Shown here: piece by piece, positions 12,521-19,262 of the stretch
Numbering within the stretch: position 1 is the stretch's first letter
Layout of the letters: the number at the start of each line of letters is the position of its first letter
From: Dongia sedimenti
Lineage (GTDB): Bacteria > Pseudomonadota > Alphaproteobacteria > Dongiales > Dongiaceae
Length of the DNA stretch: 64,000 nt
Assembly: GCA_030715195.1 (NCBI GenBank)
Contig: JAUYVI010000002.1
Location: 372,001-436,000, forward strand
Reading direction: 5' to 3'
The notes under the pieces: model-generated
Told to the model about the DNA's origin: nothing
What the model saw: the letters and a program-made list of their open reading frames with translations, nothing else
Database searches by the model: none
Program-made: the position numbers and the translations under genes

Positions 12521-13381
12521 TCAGGCGCGAAGCGCGCCGGGTGCGGCGGGCTTGGTCGCGGGCGCGGCCTGACCCGTGGTCAGGCCATAGACGCCGCGCT
12601 GGCCGGCGAGGAGCTGGAACTTGTCGGTGATGCCGAGCACCGTCTCGGCGCCGCCGAGGAACAGGTAGCCGTCATTCGGCATCAGCCCGGCGATGTTGTT
12701 CAGGATCTTGGCCTTGGTCGGCTGGTCGAAATAGATCAGCACGTTGCGGCAGAACACGACGTCGAACTTGCCGAGCGACCGCGGGTCGTTCAGCAGGTTG
12801 AATTCCTTGTACTGCACCATGCTGCGGATCTTCTGATTGATCTGCCAGCGATCGCCGACCTGGGTGAAGTATTTGACCAACAGGTTGATCGGCAGGCCGC
12901 GCTGCGCCTCGAACTGCGAATAGATGCCTTCGCGCGCGCGGTCGAGAATCTCGGTCGACAGATCGGTGCCGAGGATCTCGATCTTCCAGCCGCTGAGCTG
13001 GGCCGCCATCTCGGACAGGATCATCGCCAGCGAGTAGCACTCCTGGCCGCTCGAGGCCGCGGCGCTCCAGATCCGGATCTGCTTGTTGGGGCGCGCCGCC
13101 ATCAGGGTGGGGAGCACGATCTGCTTGAACTGGTCGAACGGCTTGGTGTCGCGGAAGAAGAAGGACTCGTTCGTGGTCATCGCCTCGACCACGTCCTTGA
13201 TCACGGCCTCGTCGCTCTTGACGCGGATCAGGCGGACCAGGTCCTCGAACGAGGCGAGCTTGTATTTGCGGGCGACCGGCAGCAGGCGGCTTTCGAGCAG
13301 GTAGGCCTTGTCGTTGCCGAGCACCAGGCCGGAGCGCTGCCTCAGGATTTGACAGATGAAATCGAAATCCGTCACCGTCAT
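12521..13381 (-). CDS. cheR: Chemotaxis protein methyltransferase CheR
   Basis: SAM-dependent methyltransferase that methylates glutamates of chemoreceptors, opposing CheB. The 286-residue protein has an N-terminal helical domain (DFDFICQILRQRSGLVLGNDK), the SAM-binding block IWSAAASSGQECYSLAM and the FDVVFCRNVLIYFD block. The start at 13381 overlaps the cheB stop by 4 nt (ATGA); the longer open frame to 13486 runs inside cheB and lacks family similarity. A short Ala/Pro-rich tail ends the protein. It is the last gene of the chemotaxis operon. Confidence 0.95.
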   Translation of the reverse strand: MTVTDFDFICQILRQRSGLVLGNDKAYLLESRLLPVARKYKLASFEDLVRLIRVKSDEAVIKDVVEAMTTNESFFFRDTKPFDQFKQIVLPTLMAARPNKQIRIWSAAASSGQECYSLAMILSEMAAQLSGWKIEILGTDLSTEILDRAREGIYSQFEAQRGLPINLLVKYFTQVGDRWQINQKIRSMVQYKEFNLLNDPRSLGKFDVVFCRNVLIYFDQPTKAKILNNIAGLMPNDGYLFLGGAETVLGITDKFQLLAGQRGVYGLTTGQAAPATKPAAPGALRA

Positions 13382-14523
13382 GCCGCCGACCTCATCAGGG
13401 CCTTCTTGACATAGGCCCCGATCTCGTTGAGCGGCAGCACCGCAGTGCAGAGCCCGGCCGATGCGACGGCACCCGGCATGCCCCAAACGACACTGCTGGC
13501 CTCATCCTGCGCGATGACCGTGCTTCCTGCGTTGACGAGTTCCCGTGCTCCCTTCAAGCCATCCTGCCCCATTCCGGTCAGCATGACAAACAGGGTGCGG
13601 TTGCCATAGGCCTTGGCGATCGAGCGCAGCATGGGATCGACGGCCGGGCGGCAGAAGTTCTCGGGCGGATTCTTGTTAAGCCGGACCACCAAGCCGGCAC
13701 CCTGGCCCTCCACCGTCATGTGGAAGTCGCCCGGGGCGACATAGATGCGCCCGGGAACAGCGGCCTCGCCGTCCTTGGCCTCGGCCGCCGGCATCCCGGA
13801 AGCTTGCGCAAGATGCTCGGCGAGAATGGTGGTGAAGGTCGCCGGCATGTGCTGGGTCACGAAGACCGGCATGCGCTCAACCCGGCCCAAGGCGCGGAAC
13901 ACCGCGAACAGCGCTTGCGGTCCGCCGGTCGAGGAACCGATCGCCAGGCAATCGACCTTGCCCGGCAACACGGCTTGCGGACGCAGCGTGACCGCGCCGG
14001 GATACAGTTTCTTCGGCGGCGGCGGGATGTTGCTGCCCGGCGCGGCAGCCGAACCGGGCGGCAGCCCGCGCTTGCGGCGCGCGACCAAGCCCCAGCTCTT
14101 CACCTTCTCGACCAGATCGCGCTTGAAATCGCCGGCGGTGCTGATGCCGGTCGTGGTGGTGGGCTTCGGCAGGTAGTCGGCGGCGCCCAACGACAGCGCC
14201 TTCATGCTGACCGAAGCGCCCTTCAGGGTCAGGGTCGAGGCCATGATCACCTGGACGCCGGGCCGCGCTTCCAAGAGCTTCGGCAGCGCGGTCAACCCGT
14301 CCATCACCGGCATTTCGATGTCGAGCACGATGACGTCGATATCGGTGCGCTTCAGAGCATCGACCGCGGCCTGGCCGTTGCCGACGGTCGACATCACCTT
14401 GATCTCGGCGTCGGTTTCCAGAGTCTTGGTCAGCAGGCCGCGAATAACCGCGGAGTCGTCCACCACCATAACCCGATATGGTCCGCCGCCGGTCGCGACT
14501 GCTGGTTTGGTTTCAGGTCGCAT
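13378..14523 (-). CDS. cheB: Chemoreceptor glutamate methylesterase CheB
   Basis: Response regulator-methylesterase that demethylates and deamidates chemoreceptors. The receiver domain has D68 in VLDIEMPVMDG. The C-terminal hydrolase has S198 in GSSTGG, H225 in TQHMPA and D321 in TGMGQDG, the expected catalytic triad. A Pro-rich linker (about 150-190) separates the two. Its length of 381 residues is normal. It lies between cheY and cheR, with ATGA coupling to cheR. Confidence 0.96.
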   Translation of the reverse strand: MRPETKPAVATGGGPYRVMVVDDSAVIRGLLTKTLETDAEIKVMSTVGNGQAAVDALKRTDIDVIVLDIEMPVMDGLTALPKLLEARPGVQVIMASTLTLKGASVSMKALSLGAADYLPKPTTTTGISTAGDFKRDLVEKVKSWGLVARRKRGLPPGSAAAPGSNIPPPPKKLYPGAVTLRPQAVLPGKVDCLAIGSSTGGPQALFAVFRALGRVERMPVFVTQHMPATFTTILAEHLAQASGMPAAEAKDGEAAVPGRIYVAPGDFHMTVEGQGAGLVVRLNKNPPENFCRPAVDPMLRSIAKAYGNRTLFVMLTGMGQDGLKGARELVNAGSTVIAQDEASSVVWGMPGAVASAGLCTAVLPLNEIGAYVKKALMRSAA

Positions 14524-14554: not shown

Positions 14555-14920
14555 TTAAAGAAGTCCGACTTGGCTGAACTTCGACTCGATGATCTCGCTG
14601 TCGAAGGGCTTCATGATGTACTCGTTGGCGCCCGCGCTGATCGCCTCCTGGATGTGCTGGATGTCGTTCTCGGTGGTGCAGAACACCACGACCGGGGTCT
14701 GGCCGCCGGGCATCTGGCGGAGATTGCGCAGGAAGTCGATGCCGCTCATGACCGGCATGTTCCAGTCGAGCAGGATCGCGTCCGGCATCCGCTTCAGGCA
14801 CTGGTCCATGGCGGTCTGGCCGTTATCCGCTTCCTCGATCGCGAAATTGAGGCCCTCAATGATCTTGCGGGCCACCATCCGAACGACCTTGGAATCATCG
14901 ACGATCAAGCACGACTTCAT
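14555..14920 (-). CDS. cheY: Chemotaxis response regulator CheY
   Basis: Single-domain receiver of 121 residues that carries the CheA signal to the flagellar motor switch. It has the acidic pair D8/D9, phosphoacceptor D52 (ILLDWNMPVMSG), Thr in FCTTEND and K104 in IMKPFDSE. The 31-nt gap to cheB and the 96-nt gap to cheW fit an operon. The sequence is of the PatA/CheY type common in alphaproteobacterial che clusters. Confidence 0.94.
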   Translation of the reverse strand: MKSCLIVDDSKVVRMVARKIIEGLNFAIEEADNGQTAMDQCLKRMPDAILLDWNMPVMSGIDFLRNLRQMPGGQTPVVVFCTTENDIQHIQEAISAGANEYIMKPFDSEIIESKFSQVGLL

Positions 14921-15016: not shown

Positions 15017-15520
15017 CTAAGCGGCGTCCGCCCGGTTGCCGAAGTTCAGGAGCGACGAAACGCTGAGGACCACGAGCAGGGAATCGTTCAGACGATATAT
15101 CCCATCCGAGAACTCGCGCAATCTCGGATTGAGGGTGGGCGGATTCCGTTGATAATCCCGGGTTTCAAGGCTCAGGACTTCGCCGACGCTGTCCACCAGC
15201 AGGCTGTAGAGCTCGCCTTCATGCTCGACCACGACCGACATCGCGGCCTTGTCGTTCTCGCGCTTCGGCAGACCCAGACGCAGCCGCACATCGACCGCGG
15301 TGACGATCCGGCCGCGCAGGTTCAGCGAACCCGCGACCTCGACCGGCGCCAGCGGCACGCGGGTGATGGTCTGCGACCCCAGCACGTCCTGAACCTTCAG
15401 GACCGGGATGCCGAACAGCTGCCCGCCGATCGACATGGTCACGTAGTCGCGGTTATCGCTGGATCCGACCTTGGCGCCGTTCGCGGCGGCTTCGGGTTCG
15501 GCTTCGACGTTCCTGCTCAT
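15017..15520 (-). CDS. cheW: Chemotaxis coupling protein CheW
   Basis: Adaptor linking chemoreceptors to CheA. The 167-residue protein has a disordered Ala/Glu-rich N-terminus of about 22 residues, then one CheW domain (YVTMSIGGQLFGIPVLKVQDVL, NLRGRIVTAVDVRLRLGLP, VDSVGEVLSL). Its start overlaps the cheA stop by 4 nt. It is a standard member of the operon. Confidence 0.95.
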   Translation of the reverse strand: MSRNVEAEPEAAANGAKVGSSDNRDYVTMSIGGQLFGIPVLKVQDVLGSQTITRVPLAPVEVAGSLNLRGRIVTAVDVRLRLGLPKRENDKAAMSVVVEHEGELYSLLVDSVGEVLSLETRDYQRNPPTLNPRLREFSDGIYRLNDSLLVVLSVSSLLNFGNRADAA

Positions 15521-18477
15521 GCGGCACCTCTCATCAGTTCGGCAAGCGCTTCGTTCATGGTGTGAACCAGACCCTCGCGGTCGTACTTGGCGACGTAGTC
15601 GTCAAAGCCGACCTGACGGCCGCGCGCGATATCCTTCGGGCTGGCATGGGACGACAGTGCAATGATGGGCGTCGTCTGCCAGCGGGCGTTCTTCTTCACC
15701 GACTCGCAGAACTCGAAGCCGTTCATGCCCGGCATCTCGATGTCGCTGATGATGAGGTCGAACTCCTCGCCCGACTCGCTCAGCGAGAGCGCCTTGTCGG
15801 CCGAGTCCATTGCGATCACCTGGAAGCCCGCGGCGGTGAGCTGCGGCGCCAAGAGGTTGCGGAAGAAGGCGCTGTCATCGACCAGCAGCACGCGGCGGCG
15901 CTTCCCGGTTTCGACGGCATCCTGCTGCTGCGAGCCGAACCAATCCTTGAAGGCCTGGCTCAGGTAGTAGCCGGCATCGACGATCTCGGTCGCCTGGCCG
16001 GCGATGATCGCCGAACCGATGCGGCCCGGCTGCTCGGCGGCCAGATCGACATTGAGCTTGGCTTCGACGATATCGACGATCTCGTCCACCATCAGGCCCA
16101 TGGCCTTCTCGCGGTCGGAGAAGACCAGCACCGGCTGGCGGCCTTCCTTCTCGCCACCCAGCTCCTGCTCGTGGTTCATCGGGATCAACGGCATCAGCTG
16201 GCCGCGATACTGCACGACCCAGCGATCGTTGGAGCGCTCGATGGTCTTGCGCTCGATCTCCTCGAGGCGCGCGACCAGCGCCAGCGGCACCGCCATCGGC
16301 ACGCCCGAACCGGTGCGGAACAGCAGCAGCGGCACGACTTCCTCGCCATGGCCGCGCGACTTGGCAGCGGCCGCGTCGGCGGCGTCGCCGGCGTCCGAGA
16401 TGCCCATCTGGCCCGAAGCTTCGGCGATCCCGTTGGGATCGAGGATCATGATGACGCTGCCGTCGCCGAGGATGGTGTTGCCCGAGAACATCGGGATGTG
16501 ACGCAGGATCGGCGCCACCGGCTTCACGACGATTTCCTCGGTGTCGAACACGCGGTCGACCATGATGCCGAAGTTGTAGGTGCCGACCTGGGTCACGACG
16601 ATGAAGGTGTCGTTCTCGATCGCCTCCTTGCCGTCGGTCAGCTCGAGCTTCTCGCGCAGCGAGACCAGCGGCAGCAGCTTATTGCGCAAGCGCAGGACCG
16701 GCGTGTCCTTGATCTTCTCGACCTTGAGCTCGCCGTTCGCGGTGGCGCGCACCAGCTCGACCACGCTGATCTGCGGGATGGCGAAACGCTCGCCGGCGCA
16801 TTCGACCACCAGGGCCGAGACGATGGCGAGGGTGAGCGGGATCTTGATCGAGAACGTCGTGCCCTTGCCCTCGATCGAGCGCAGCTCGACGGTGCCGCCG
16901 ATCTTCTCGATGTTGGTCTTGACCACGTCCATGCCGACGCCGCGTCCGGAGACGCTGGTGACGGCGGCGGCGGTGGAGAAGCCGGCCTTGAAGATGTACT
17001 GCTGGATCTGTTGATCACTCATCGTGTCCAGCTCGCTCTCGCTCGCCAGACCGTTCTTTACGATCTTCTCCTTGATCTTCGCCATCGGCAGGCCCTTGCC
17101 GTCATCGGAGATCTCGATGACGATGTGGCCGCCCTCGTGATAGGCGTTCAGCGTGATCTTGCCGGTCTCCGGCTTGCCGATGCGGCGCCGCTCTTCCGGG
17201 GTCTCGAGGCCATGGTCGCCCGAGTTCCGCACCATGTGCGTCAGCGGGTCCTTGATCATCTCGAGCACCTGGCGATCGAGCTCGGTCTCCTGACCGATCA
17301 TCACCAGGTCGATCTTCTTCTTCAATTCGTGGCTGAGGTCGCGCACCAGGCGCGGCAGCTTGGCCCAGGCATTGCCGATCGGCTGCATGCGGGTCTTCAT
17401 CACGCCTTCCTGGAGCTCGGAAGTCACGTGGTTCAGACGCTGCAGCGGGGCGGCGAACTCGCTGTCCTTCTGCTTGCGCAAGATCTGCAGGACCTGGTTG
17501 CGGGTCAGCACGAGTTCGCTGACCATGGTCATCAGGTTCTCGAGCAGCTCGACATTGACGCGGATGGTCTGGTTGGCGACCGATTCCTCGGAGCCGCCTT
17601 CCTTCTTCGCGGCGGCGGCCTTCGGCTTCGCAACCGGATCGGCGGCGACGGTCTCGCTCGCGGCGGCAACGGCGGGCGCGGCCGCACCGGCGGTCGCTTC
17701 GTCGCGGGTCGCGAAGATCATGCCCATGATCCGGGCCGACAGGGCCGCGGAAACCTCGAGCTGGTTCAGCGCCGCCTGCAGATGGCCGCAGGCCGCGTCG
17801 AACTGCGCGTCGTTCATGTTGCGATCGATCAGCACCGACTTGGCGCTGGAATCCGGGCCGCCGCAGAGCTTGGCGAGATAGTCGCGCATCTGGCCCTGCA
17901 GATGGTCGATGCTGGCGCCGTCGAATGCCTGCTTCACGCGCAGATCGCCGGTCACGCGGGCGAAGAAGACTTCGACCACCGCATCGACCGTGCCCATGCC
18001 GCCGATCTGATCGTAGATCGAGGCCGAGCTTTCCGCCGCCGCCAGAGCCGAGACCGGCGCAGGCGCCGCCGCGGGCGCCGCCGGGGCGGAGCTGGCACCG
18101 CCGGATTCGGCGAACGCATTCAGGCGCTTGATGAGATCGGTGTCGTCGCCGGCCGGCTCCGCGCCGGTGGCTTCGAGATCGGTCATCACGGTGCGGATCC
18201 GGTCGAGGCATTCGAGAATGAGCGAGACGGCTTCGGCGCCGACCTCGATCTCGCCGTCACGCACCTTGCCCAGCACGTTCTCGCCGGCATGTGCGACCGA
18301 TTCCAGCCGCGACAGGCCGAGAAATCCGCAGGTACCCTTCACCGTGTGAACGAGCCTGAAGATGTTCCCGAGCAGGTCCATGTCGTTGGGATTTTGCTCG
18401 AGCCGCACCAGCTCGACATCGAGCACGGCGAGGTTCTCCGAGGTCTCGGTCAGAAATTCTTTGAGCAGATCATCCAT
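15517..18477 (-). CDS. cheA: Chemotaxis histidine kinase CheA with truncated-globin-like insert and C-terminal receiver
   Basis: A 986-residue hybrid kinase. Domains in order: HPt 1-105 with H44 (RLVHTVKGT); an Ala/Pro linker; a truncated-globin-like region 153-258 (YDQIGG, then FFARVTGDLRV and DYLAKLCGGP); a second linker; dimerisation 300-370; HATPase 370-550 with N-box HMVRNSGDHG (414-423) and G-boxes DDGKG (458-462) and SGRGVGMD; a CheW domain 550-685; a second CheW-like domain 712-845; and a receiver 861-983 with D912 (SDIEMPG) and K964. Ordinary CheA proteins are about 650-750 residues. The globin-like part replaces the usual P2 region. The proximal His expected in truncated globins appears to be Leu here. 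The gene follows chpT and overlaps cheW by 4 nt. Confidence 0.93.
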   Translation of the reverse strand: MDDLLKEFLTETSENLAVLDVELVRLEQNPNDMDLLGNIFRLVHTVKGTCGFLGLSRLESVAHAGENVLGKVRDGEIEVGAEAVSLILECLDRIRTVMTDLEATGAEPAGDDTDLIKRLNAFAESGGASSAPAAPAAAPAPVSALAAAESSASIYDQIGGMGTVDAVVEVFFARVTGDLRVKQAFDGASIDHLQGQMRDYLAKLCGGPDSSAKSVLIDRNMNDAQFDAACGHLQAALNQLEVSAALSARIMGMIFATRDEATAGAAAPAVAAASETVAADPVAKPKAAAAKKEGGSEESVANQTIRVNVELLENLMTMVSELVLTRNQVLQILRKQKDSEFAAPLQRLNHVTSELQEGVMKTRMQPIGNAWAKLPRLVRDLSHELKKKIDLVMIGQETELDRQVLEMIKDPLTHMVRNSGDHGLETPEERRRIGKPETGKITLNAYHEGGHIVIEISDDGKGLPMAKIKEKIVKNGLASESELDTMSDQQIQQYIFKAGFSTAAAVTSVSGRGVGMDVVKTNIEKIGGTVELRSIEGKGTTFSIKIPLTLAIVSALVVECAGERFAIPQISVVELVRATANGELKVEKIKDTPVLRLRNKLLPLVSLREKLELTDGKEAIENDTFIVVTQVGTYNFGIMVDRVFDTEEIVVKPVAPILRHIPMFSGNTILGDGSVIMILDPNGIAEASGQMGISDAGDAADAAAAKSRGHGEEVVPLLLFRTGSGVPMAVPLALVARLEEIERKTIERSNDRWVVQYRGQLMPLIPMNHEQELGGEKEGRQPVLVFSDREKAMGLMVDEIVDIVEAKLNVDLAAEQPGRIGSAIIAGQATEIVDAGYYLSQAFKDWFGSQQQDAVETGKRRRVLLVDDSAFFRNLLAPQLTAAGFQVIAMDSADKALSLSESGEEFDLIISDIEMPGMNGFEFCESVKKNARWQTTPIIALSSHASPKDIARGRQVGFDDYVAKYDREGLVHTMNEALAELMRGAA

Positions 18478-18626: not shown

Positions 18627-19262
18627 CTAAGCGGCTGTTCGGCCCTGCAGAATCGCTATGCCGCTGGCCGGCTGCGACAATTCCAGCCGGTATTTGTGGT
18701 GCGCGGCAATCAGTCCCGTCAAATAGGGCTGTATATTATGTGCCGTCAATTCGATGCCGGTCCGGTCCAGGGCCAGGAGTCGGGCCACGTCCGGCGAGTA
18801 GCCTGCCTGCTGGCCTTCGGCCGTCAGCCCGAAGGCCGCCTTGCCGTCGGCTTCGCTGGCCGCCAGCGTCAATACGCCGCCACGGGGCATCCATTCGACC
18901 GTGGTCAGGATGGCATTGAGCAGCAGCTTGCCGAAGCCCTGCGGCCAATCCGCCACCGCCGGAAGATCCGCCCTGAGTTCGACCCGGTTGCTGTCGAGCG
19001 CTTCGCGGGCGAATTTGACCGCCTCGCCGGCGCCGAAGCTGGGCTGGTTGCCGGCATTGCCGTAGGCGCAGCGGTACATCTGCAGCAGGGCCGAGGCCCG
19101 GTGGGTGCTGCTCTCGACCAGGCGCCGCGCATCCTGCAGAAGCTCGTCGTCCCCCTCCTCGGCCATCAGCTCGAGCCCGTTGCCGACGGCACCGACCGGG
19201 CTGATCAGGTCATGGCAAAGCCGCGAGCAAACCAGTTCCAGGATCTGCAGGTCGAAGGTCAT
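18627..19262 (-). CDS. chpT: Histidine phosphotransferase ChpT
   Basis: Phosphotransferase that passes phosphate from the hybrid kinase CckA to CtrA and CpdR. The 211-residue protein opens with the ChpT signature ELVCSRLCHDLISPVGAVGNGLE, with phospho-accepting H17 in the CHDL motif. A degenerate kinase-like C-terminal domain follows (PQGFGKLLLNAILT) that lacks ATP-binding glycines, as expected for the family. It heads the che operon, 149 nt upstream of cheA. This links the CtrA phosphorelay and chemotaxis genes physically. Confidence 0.9.
   Translation of the reverse strand: MTFDLQILELVCSRLCHDLISPVGAVGNGLELMAEEGDDELLQDARRLVESSTHRASALLQMYRCAYGNAGNQPSFGAGEAVKFAREALDSNRVELRADLPAVADWPQGFGKLLLNAILTTVEWMPRGGVLTLAASEADGKAAFGLTAEGQQAGYSPDVARLLALDRTGIELTAHNIQPYLTGLIAAHHKYRLELSQPASGIAILQGRTAA

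Follow-up and report, generated by a model that had tools for sequence, protein, structure and literature searches.

The chemotaxis kinase and its gene cluster

The window, by which is meant the whole 64,000-nucleotide stretch of the Dongia sedimenti genome that was analysed, carries a chemotaxis cluster in which the genes run in the order cheA-cheW-cheY-cheB-cheR, with cheA at the head. Upstream of cheA there is a gene for a ChpT-like histidine phosphotransferase (Table 1). The cheA product can be identified as such from its Hpt, H-kinase_dim, HATPase_c and CheW core, all of which score above the Pfam cut-offs, and the extents given by the profiles are Hpt 3-95, Bac_globin 153-261, H-kinase_dim 302-362, HATPase_c 410-549 and receiver 863-971, together with two CheW stretches, the better of which covers 555-686. 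Within the Hpt region His44 is presumably the phospho-histidine, a role assigned from knowledge of the family. The same genome encodes a second CheA, of another type and globin-free, about 16 kb before the window (L147; G000:C12:353500-359500).

The preliminary description of this DNA, made from the letters alone, held that the usual P2 domain is absent from the place between the Hpt domain and the kinase core, and in agreement with this hmmscan against Pfam gave no match to a P2/CheY-binding domain, which is an optional component of CheA, up to E 1 in the window protein. Pfam profiles overlook many P2 domains, and P2 is missing from more than half of the CheAs surveyed, according to accessible passages of a survey of CheA domains (PMC10782961, the latter in section 11).

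Table 1. Features of the cheA gene, its product and its neighbours in the window
Feature	Positions	Strand	Basis
cheA, 986 aa: Hpt-globin-H-kinase_dim-HATPase_c-CheW-CheW-receiver	15517..18477	-	ORF and Pfam
Hpt region, residues 1-110, including putative phospho-histidine His44	18148..18477	-	Pfam Hpt, 57.1 bits
Group 1 truncated-globin domain (predicted), residues 153-261	17695..18021	-	PF01152, PDB sequence matches, AlphaFold and Foldseek
Distal side: Phe172 (B10), Phe185 (CD1), Leu193 (E7), Gln196 (E10), Met197 (E11)	17887..17964	-	alignment
Lys213, column of the proximal haem histidine F8	17839..17841	-	alignment with free globins of the class
Ala/Lys-rich linker, residues 262-301	17575..17694	-	sequence
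Dimerisation and ATPase domains with the stretch between, residues 302-549	16831..17574	-	Pfam
First CheW domain, residues 555-686	16420..16815	-	Pfam
C-terminal receiver domain, residues 863-971	15565..15891	-	Pfam
cheW	15017..15520	-	profile scan
Single-domain receiver, cheY-like	14555..14920	-	profile scan
cheB	13378..14523	-	profile scan
cheR	12521..13486 (mechanical frame; scanned from 13378)	-	profile scan
Histidine phosphotransferase (HPTransfase, PF10090, ChpT-like), upstream of cheA	18627..19262	-	profile scan

The truncated-globin domain and its haem site

What, then, occupies the place between the phosphotransfer domain and the kinase core? The preliminary description had proposed a domain like the group 1 truncated haemoglobins at residues 153-258 (18021-17704 by coordinate computation), and this assignment is confirmed by profile and by predicted structure. 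In the whole CheA the PF01152 (Bac_globin) profile gives 42.2 bits (E 1.1e-10) at residues 153-261 against a cut-off of 21, and on the domain alone it gives 48.7 bits (E 1.1e-12; hmmscan, same cut-off); at a threshold of E 0.001 this is the sole PF01152 match of the genome. The nearest PDB sequences found with the domain by phmmer are group 1 truncated haemoglobins (best E 5.6e-13), and the same PF01152 model also recognises all 22 members of a diverse set of related domains, 21 of them from CheA and one from CheW. The protoglobin profile PF11563 reaches 12 bits in the whole CheA, below its cut-off of 25, and the domain is internal rather than N-terminal, such that the protein does not classify as a globin-coupled sensor. 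A diverged P2 was considered as the identity of the domain and was ruled out by the PF01152 profile and the predicted fold.

An AlphaFold model was obtained from an alignment of three rows, namely the window, Dongia deserti (L002, from G008) and a member of the Kordiimonadales (L009), the alignment being thin and its last row aligning poorly, with a pLDDT of 81.8 and a pTM of 0.77. The helices of the model span 5-8, 12-28, 30-36, 41-55, 66-69, 74-90 and 95-116, and their predicted order, A-B-C-E-(short F)-G-H, is that of a 2-on-2 globin in which the F helix is only 4 residues long. Foldseek against the PDB returned 170 matches up to E 10, 22 of these up to 0.001; every one of the best 50 of the 170 is a haemoglobin, with titles that mostly specify the truncated kind, and the trHbN entries superpose on the predicted model with a TM by query of 0.76-0.83 and an rmsd of 2.1-2.3. 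The AlphaFold comparison that had been suggested as a check thus came out in favour of the 2-on-2 fold. Prediction from the single sequence reached a pLDDT of only 56.5, and the first 26 PDB matches of that model are truncated globins or haemoglobins, the best at E 3.6e-3 with a TM below 0.4.

Haem positions were read against the free globin L017, whose histidine aligns onto the histidine of cyanoglobins with solved structure, which we take to be F8. By this ruler the F8 column holds Lys213. The preliminary description had placed F8 at Leu216, which is where the alignment with trHbN puts it, whereas free globins of the domain's own subfamily put it at Lys213; the discrepancy arises because trHbN has three fewer residues between His F8 and helix G. 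Although the numbering has to be moved, the claim behind it, that the proximal histidine is lacking and haem in the window copy doubtful, survives, given that neither alignment places a histidine in the column. The Tyr B10 and Gln E11 of group 1 truncated haemoglobins are replaced by Phe172 and Met197, the EF/F region is shortened by about seven residues in the window and its genus, and the only histidines of the domain, His192 and His232, both lie outside the F8 region. The lysine at F8, the Phe/Leu/Met distal side and the missing EF/F residues together suggest that the window copy is probably haem-free. The domain therefore resembles the group 1 truncated haemoglobins (trHbN, cyanoglobin) in its profile, its GG and GGP glycine motifs, its CD1 Phe and its predicted fold, and differs from them in lying inside a kinase, in its want of His F8, Tyr B10 and Gln E11, and in its shortened EF/F.

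The free globins of the class look different at these positions: all 16 of those sampled have His F8 and Tyr B10, and 15 have Gln E11. They were taken as best matches, with four distant ones left out, so that the sample leans to the canonical type. Of the 39 copies found in CheA linkers, 19 have His in the F8 column; among the others Phe stands there in 7, Pro in 6, Lys in 4, and Leu, Arg and Gln once each. The full Tyr B10/Gln E11/His F8 set is present in eight. For degenerate or cut copies, which do not align well and in two cases show a gap at B10, the residue letters are rough. Closer to the window, Pro occupies the F8 column in the five other unbroken members of its genus, and the next residue is His in four of them and Asn in the fifth; the order members L022 and L024 share the lysine; the genera represented by L030 and L036, also of the window's order, keep the full set but have Val at CD1; and in Dongia deserti (L002) and its kin His F8 is retained and the distal side is Phe/Met, while the window's genus keeps neither His F8 nor Tyr/Gln.

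Could the window domain nevertheless bind haem, through Lys213 or some other residue, and so sense O2, NO or CO and act directly on CheA? The lysine does fall in the F8 column, as it does in L022 and L024, CD1 Phe is kept, nearly half of the linker copies have their proximal histidine, and the histidine that adjoins the column in four of the five genus relatives would make a shifted ligand possible there. In the window, however, there is neither the Pro nor the following His/Asn of those relatives, the two histidines of the domain lie outside the F8 region, about seven EF/F residues are missing along with Tyr B10 and Gln E11, and the F helix is reduced to four residues in the model, such that haem binding by this copy appears improbable.

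Distribution, history and selection

The globin-bearing CheA is not a local oddity, since it is conserved in the window's order and recurs across the Alphaproteobacteria. Counting the CheA homologues with the insert, as the preliminary description had proposed, gives 16 of the 17 genomes of the order sample, all of which belong to the window's family, and at least 19 of the 385 genomes of the class sample, 169 of which have a CheA by PF02895. In 15 of the order genomes PF01152 matches inside an open frame of 995-1077 codons, and in the sixteenth (G003, L027) two in-frame stops interrupt the cheA frame that contains the globin. The seventeenth (G001, L149) has a CheA without globin, the short frame of which (561 aa) extends no further than the first CheW domain. 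In another genome (G390, L104) the cheA frame is broken by one stop near the CheW1 loop; the broken frames of G003 and G390 represent either draft errors or decay.

The 19 class genomes, which comprise five of the window's genus and 14 others and fall into 10 families in all, are a lower bound because no more than 11 candidates were scored for each genome, and L123, a weak copy with 21.5 bits, surfaced only afterwards. One carrier (G241), with two globin-CheAs, is marked as 10% contaminated. From the class list L093 was discarded as a free globin and L107 as a chance match within an unrelated protein. The phylum sample of 398 genomes contained seven long-frame matches outside the window's genus among the matches listed, of which L154-L156 are degenerate globins in CheA, all of the window's class, and L150-L153, from other classes, were judged to be free globins located where long open frames end, rather than fusions. 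In two small orders around other globin-CheA carriers a globin match was found in 2/2 and 1/5 genomes, and in a third in 10/22, where three long frames were examined. Conversely, 44 CheAs of the same kind, hand-picked from the class CheA list, gave no globin match above 5 bits with filters off and were labelled globin-free on that account. A scan of viral contigs with the CheA-globin profile produced pattern matches in 60 stretches and no relatives, and a plasmid search produced 15 records, all below 60% identity, of which 13 bear the annotation group 1 truncated hemoglobin.

Globins are also found at other places in the chemosensory proteins. In L092 (6474-6830) and L096 (293-655) a second globin, carrying Tyr B10, Gln E11 and His F8, lies within the first CheW domain of CheA, in a loop near window residue 617, and the same loop holds other inserts of varied length in several relatives. 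One locus (L103, 5479-6684) encodes a CheW with a C-terminal truncated globin, which has Ser in the F8 column. Another (L098, 4464-7328) encodes a methyl-accepting chemotaxis protein (MCP) in which a truncated globin stands at the N-terminus and a PAS stretch is also present, and L108 starts in the same way on a contig that ends before any MCP domain; in both of these N-terminal copies Tyr B10, Gln E11 and His F8 are all present.

On a globin tree of 53 rows, from which duplicate fetches and the distant free globins L016, L019, L033 and L034 were left out, 26 CheA copies group together, to the exclusion of every free globin, in a clade supported at 98/95 (bootstrap not settled). The position of the CheA copies outside this clade is not resolved, a single clade for all 32 linker copies on the tree not being rejected (p-AU 0.244), and the F8 column needs at least 4 changes among these 32; the later or weak copies L123, L154-L156 and L160-L162 are counted among the 39 linker copies and lie outside the tree. 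The kinase and CheW core was likewise placed on a quick tree of 76 rows, on which the 30 globin-bearing CheAs require 9 changes and many forks are weak. The window's order is represented there by 15 rows, G001 and G003 being absent, and these make up a single clade (97). This core tree has L014 and L147 as outgroup, includes no loci from L149 on, and leaves out L007 (broken frame), L013 and L015 (archaeal), L027 (stops), L090 and L097 (partial) and L128 (a copy of L105). Any count of capture, transfer and loss events from these trees is accordingly approximate.

The globin domain is under purifying selection and is less constrained in comparisons that involve the window. Within the window's genus, four pairs of other members give it a dN/dS of 0.03-0.16 and four window pairs one of 0.27-0.40, compared with 0.03-0.09 and 0.10-0.16, respectively, for the dimerisation and kinase stretch, all of these figures being rough since many dS values are near or above 1. 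Elsewhere the globin gives 0.17-0.26 (L002, L020, L021; L022, L024) and 0.51 (L100, L102), with L104-L105 saturated. The linker before the globin has a higher dN/dS than the globin in 7 of the 8 genus pairs, as does the linker after it in the three other-member pairs that give a value; in the three window pairs that give one, the latter linker lies at 0.16-0.20, below the globin, with dS above 2 and hence saturated. The weaker constraint of the window copy and the lower dN/dS of the linker that follows it would fit decay as well.

These observations bear upon the notion of the insert as a passenger, in which case it would be a folded spacer accommodated by an insertion-tolerant linker. Such a spacer would account for the scatter of globin-bearing among globin-free CheAs on the 76-row core tree, for the varied inserts of the CheW1 loop, for the short globin-free CheA of one order member and for a downstream linker no less constrained than the globin in the window pairs. 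It would sit badly with a domain present in all but one of the order genomes, with globin dN/dS values of 0.03-0.40 across the eight genus pairs and with a Tyr/Gln/His set retained in eight linker copies, and on balance it seems quite unlikely.

Possible roles and relation to known systems

The reading we prefer, to which we would give about an even chance as a whole, is that of a captured haem globin that now serves, in the window's genus, for docking or positioning and does so without haem. An alphaproteobacterial CheA would have acquired a group 1 truncated haemoglobin in its Hpt-kinase linker, and this domain would at first have been able to bind haem and thereby to let a gas or redox signal act on the kinase from within; we infer ancestral haem binding because 19 of the 39 linker copies keep His F8 and eight keep the full set. 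In the window's genus the haem site would then have been lost, as the Lys or Pro in the F8 column, the shortened EF/F and the want of Tyr B10 and Gln E11 suggest, with the globin shell being retained by selection as a haem-less domain. Its present job would most likely be mechanical, given its location between the phosphotransfer domain and the kinase core, in the place of P2 in E. coli CheA: it might dock a partner, CheY or CheB, or set the ease with which Hpt gains access to the ATPase and its receivers. Against the captured-globin reading stand the order member that dispenses with the domain (G001) and the weaker constraint on the window copy, and against a docking role in particular the large share of surveyed CheAs, more than half, that lack P2. 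For the relatives that keep His F8, as opposed to the window copy, CheA may well sense gas by itself.

Sensing of small ligands has been proposed for some non-haem globins of stress and sporulation control, and the window domain could likewise sense, without haem, some other small ligand of a hydrophobic or anionic kind. The pocket in the genus is mostly hydrophobic (B10 Phe, CD1 Phe, E7 Leu/Ile/Val, E11 mostly Met) and the globin is under purifying selection, yet a filled hydrophobic core would leave the same pattern; this possibility seems rather unlikely.

Precedent for non-haem globins in signalling comes from RsbR, the domain of which is a non-haem globin. In the stressosome RsbR likewise keeps a haem-less globin within a signalling complex, and the likeness is one of analogy only, since both the globin family and the output differ from those of the window CheA. 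A globin joined to a signalling output is also what characterises the globin-coupled sensors such as HemAT. These, however, have an N-terminal haem-binding sensor globin, as described in passages of PMC13401364, and the sensor domain of HemAT is a protoglobin according to passages of PMC6194562, whereas the window has an internal truncated globin without His F8. Closer in kind is the Bac_globin-PAS chemoreceptor of Corallococcus coralloides, a chemosensory protein with a domain of the truncated-globin family, although there, again in passages of PMC6194562, the globin is in a receptor and O2 sensing is proposed, while in the window it is in the kinase. For DgcO, a globin-coupled cyclase, an interaction with CheA and CheW is reported in PMC10360401.

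With respect to the kinase itself, the window CheA resembles CheAs with two CheW domains and a receiver, such as those of Azospirillum and Azorhizobium (PMC10782961), in its Hpt, H-kinase_dim, HATPase_c, two CheW stretches and C-terminal receiver, and differs from them in the globin between Hpt and H-kinase_dim. The auxiliary domains named in the relevant section of that survey are P2, receiver and CheC/CheX, and its main text has 0 occurrences of the word globin. The preliminary description knew of no described example of a globin in CheA, and consistent with this none appears among the matches listed in a search of open-licence full text, or in the passages of PMC9665402, PMC8396549, PMC10851874, PMC10360401 and PMC3770913. 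The same open-licence full text yielded no paper on Dongia. The Hpt-globin-kinase combination may already be present in a domain-architecture database.

The wider relevance of these proteins lies in the description of CheA, in passages of PMC10782961, as a histidine kinase without a sensor (input) domain, for a kinase so described may have, or may once have had, a sensor of its own. A pocket that looks ready for haem in some lineages and lost in others would offer a direct test of autonomous sensing by a chemotaxis kinase, and the globin-CheAs may represent a natural series in which a haem sensor turns into a haem-less signalling part. More broadly, and as a tentative reading that falls somewhat short of an even chance, truncated globins could be a recurrent plug-in of the alphaproteobacterial chemosensory array, occurring in a receptor, in CheW and in CheA, which sometimes has two of them; the full-pocket CheAs would then be kinases with their own haem gas sensor, able to bring about a change in swimming without a receptor, and the window's genus would show the module after the loss of haem, in a new job.

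A separate feature of these linkers is a short helix-like motif near GEVSLDELEAAF, which is common to the CheA linkers of L004, L005, L006, L009 and L010 and is perhaps a docking motif. The linkers of L004, L005, L006 and L010 are without a globin, and that of L009 contains a degenerate one.
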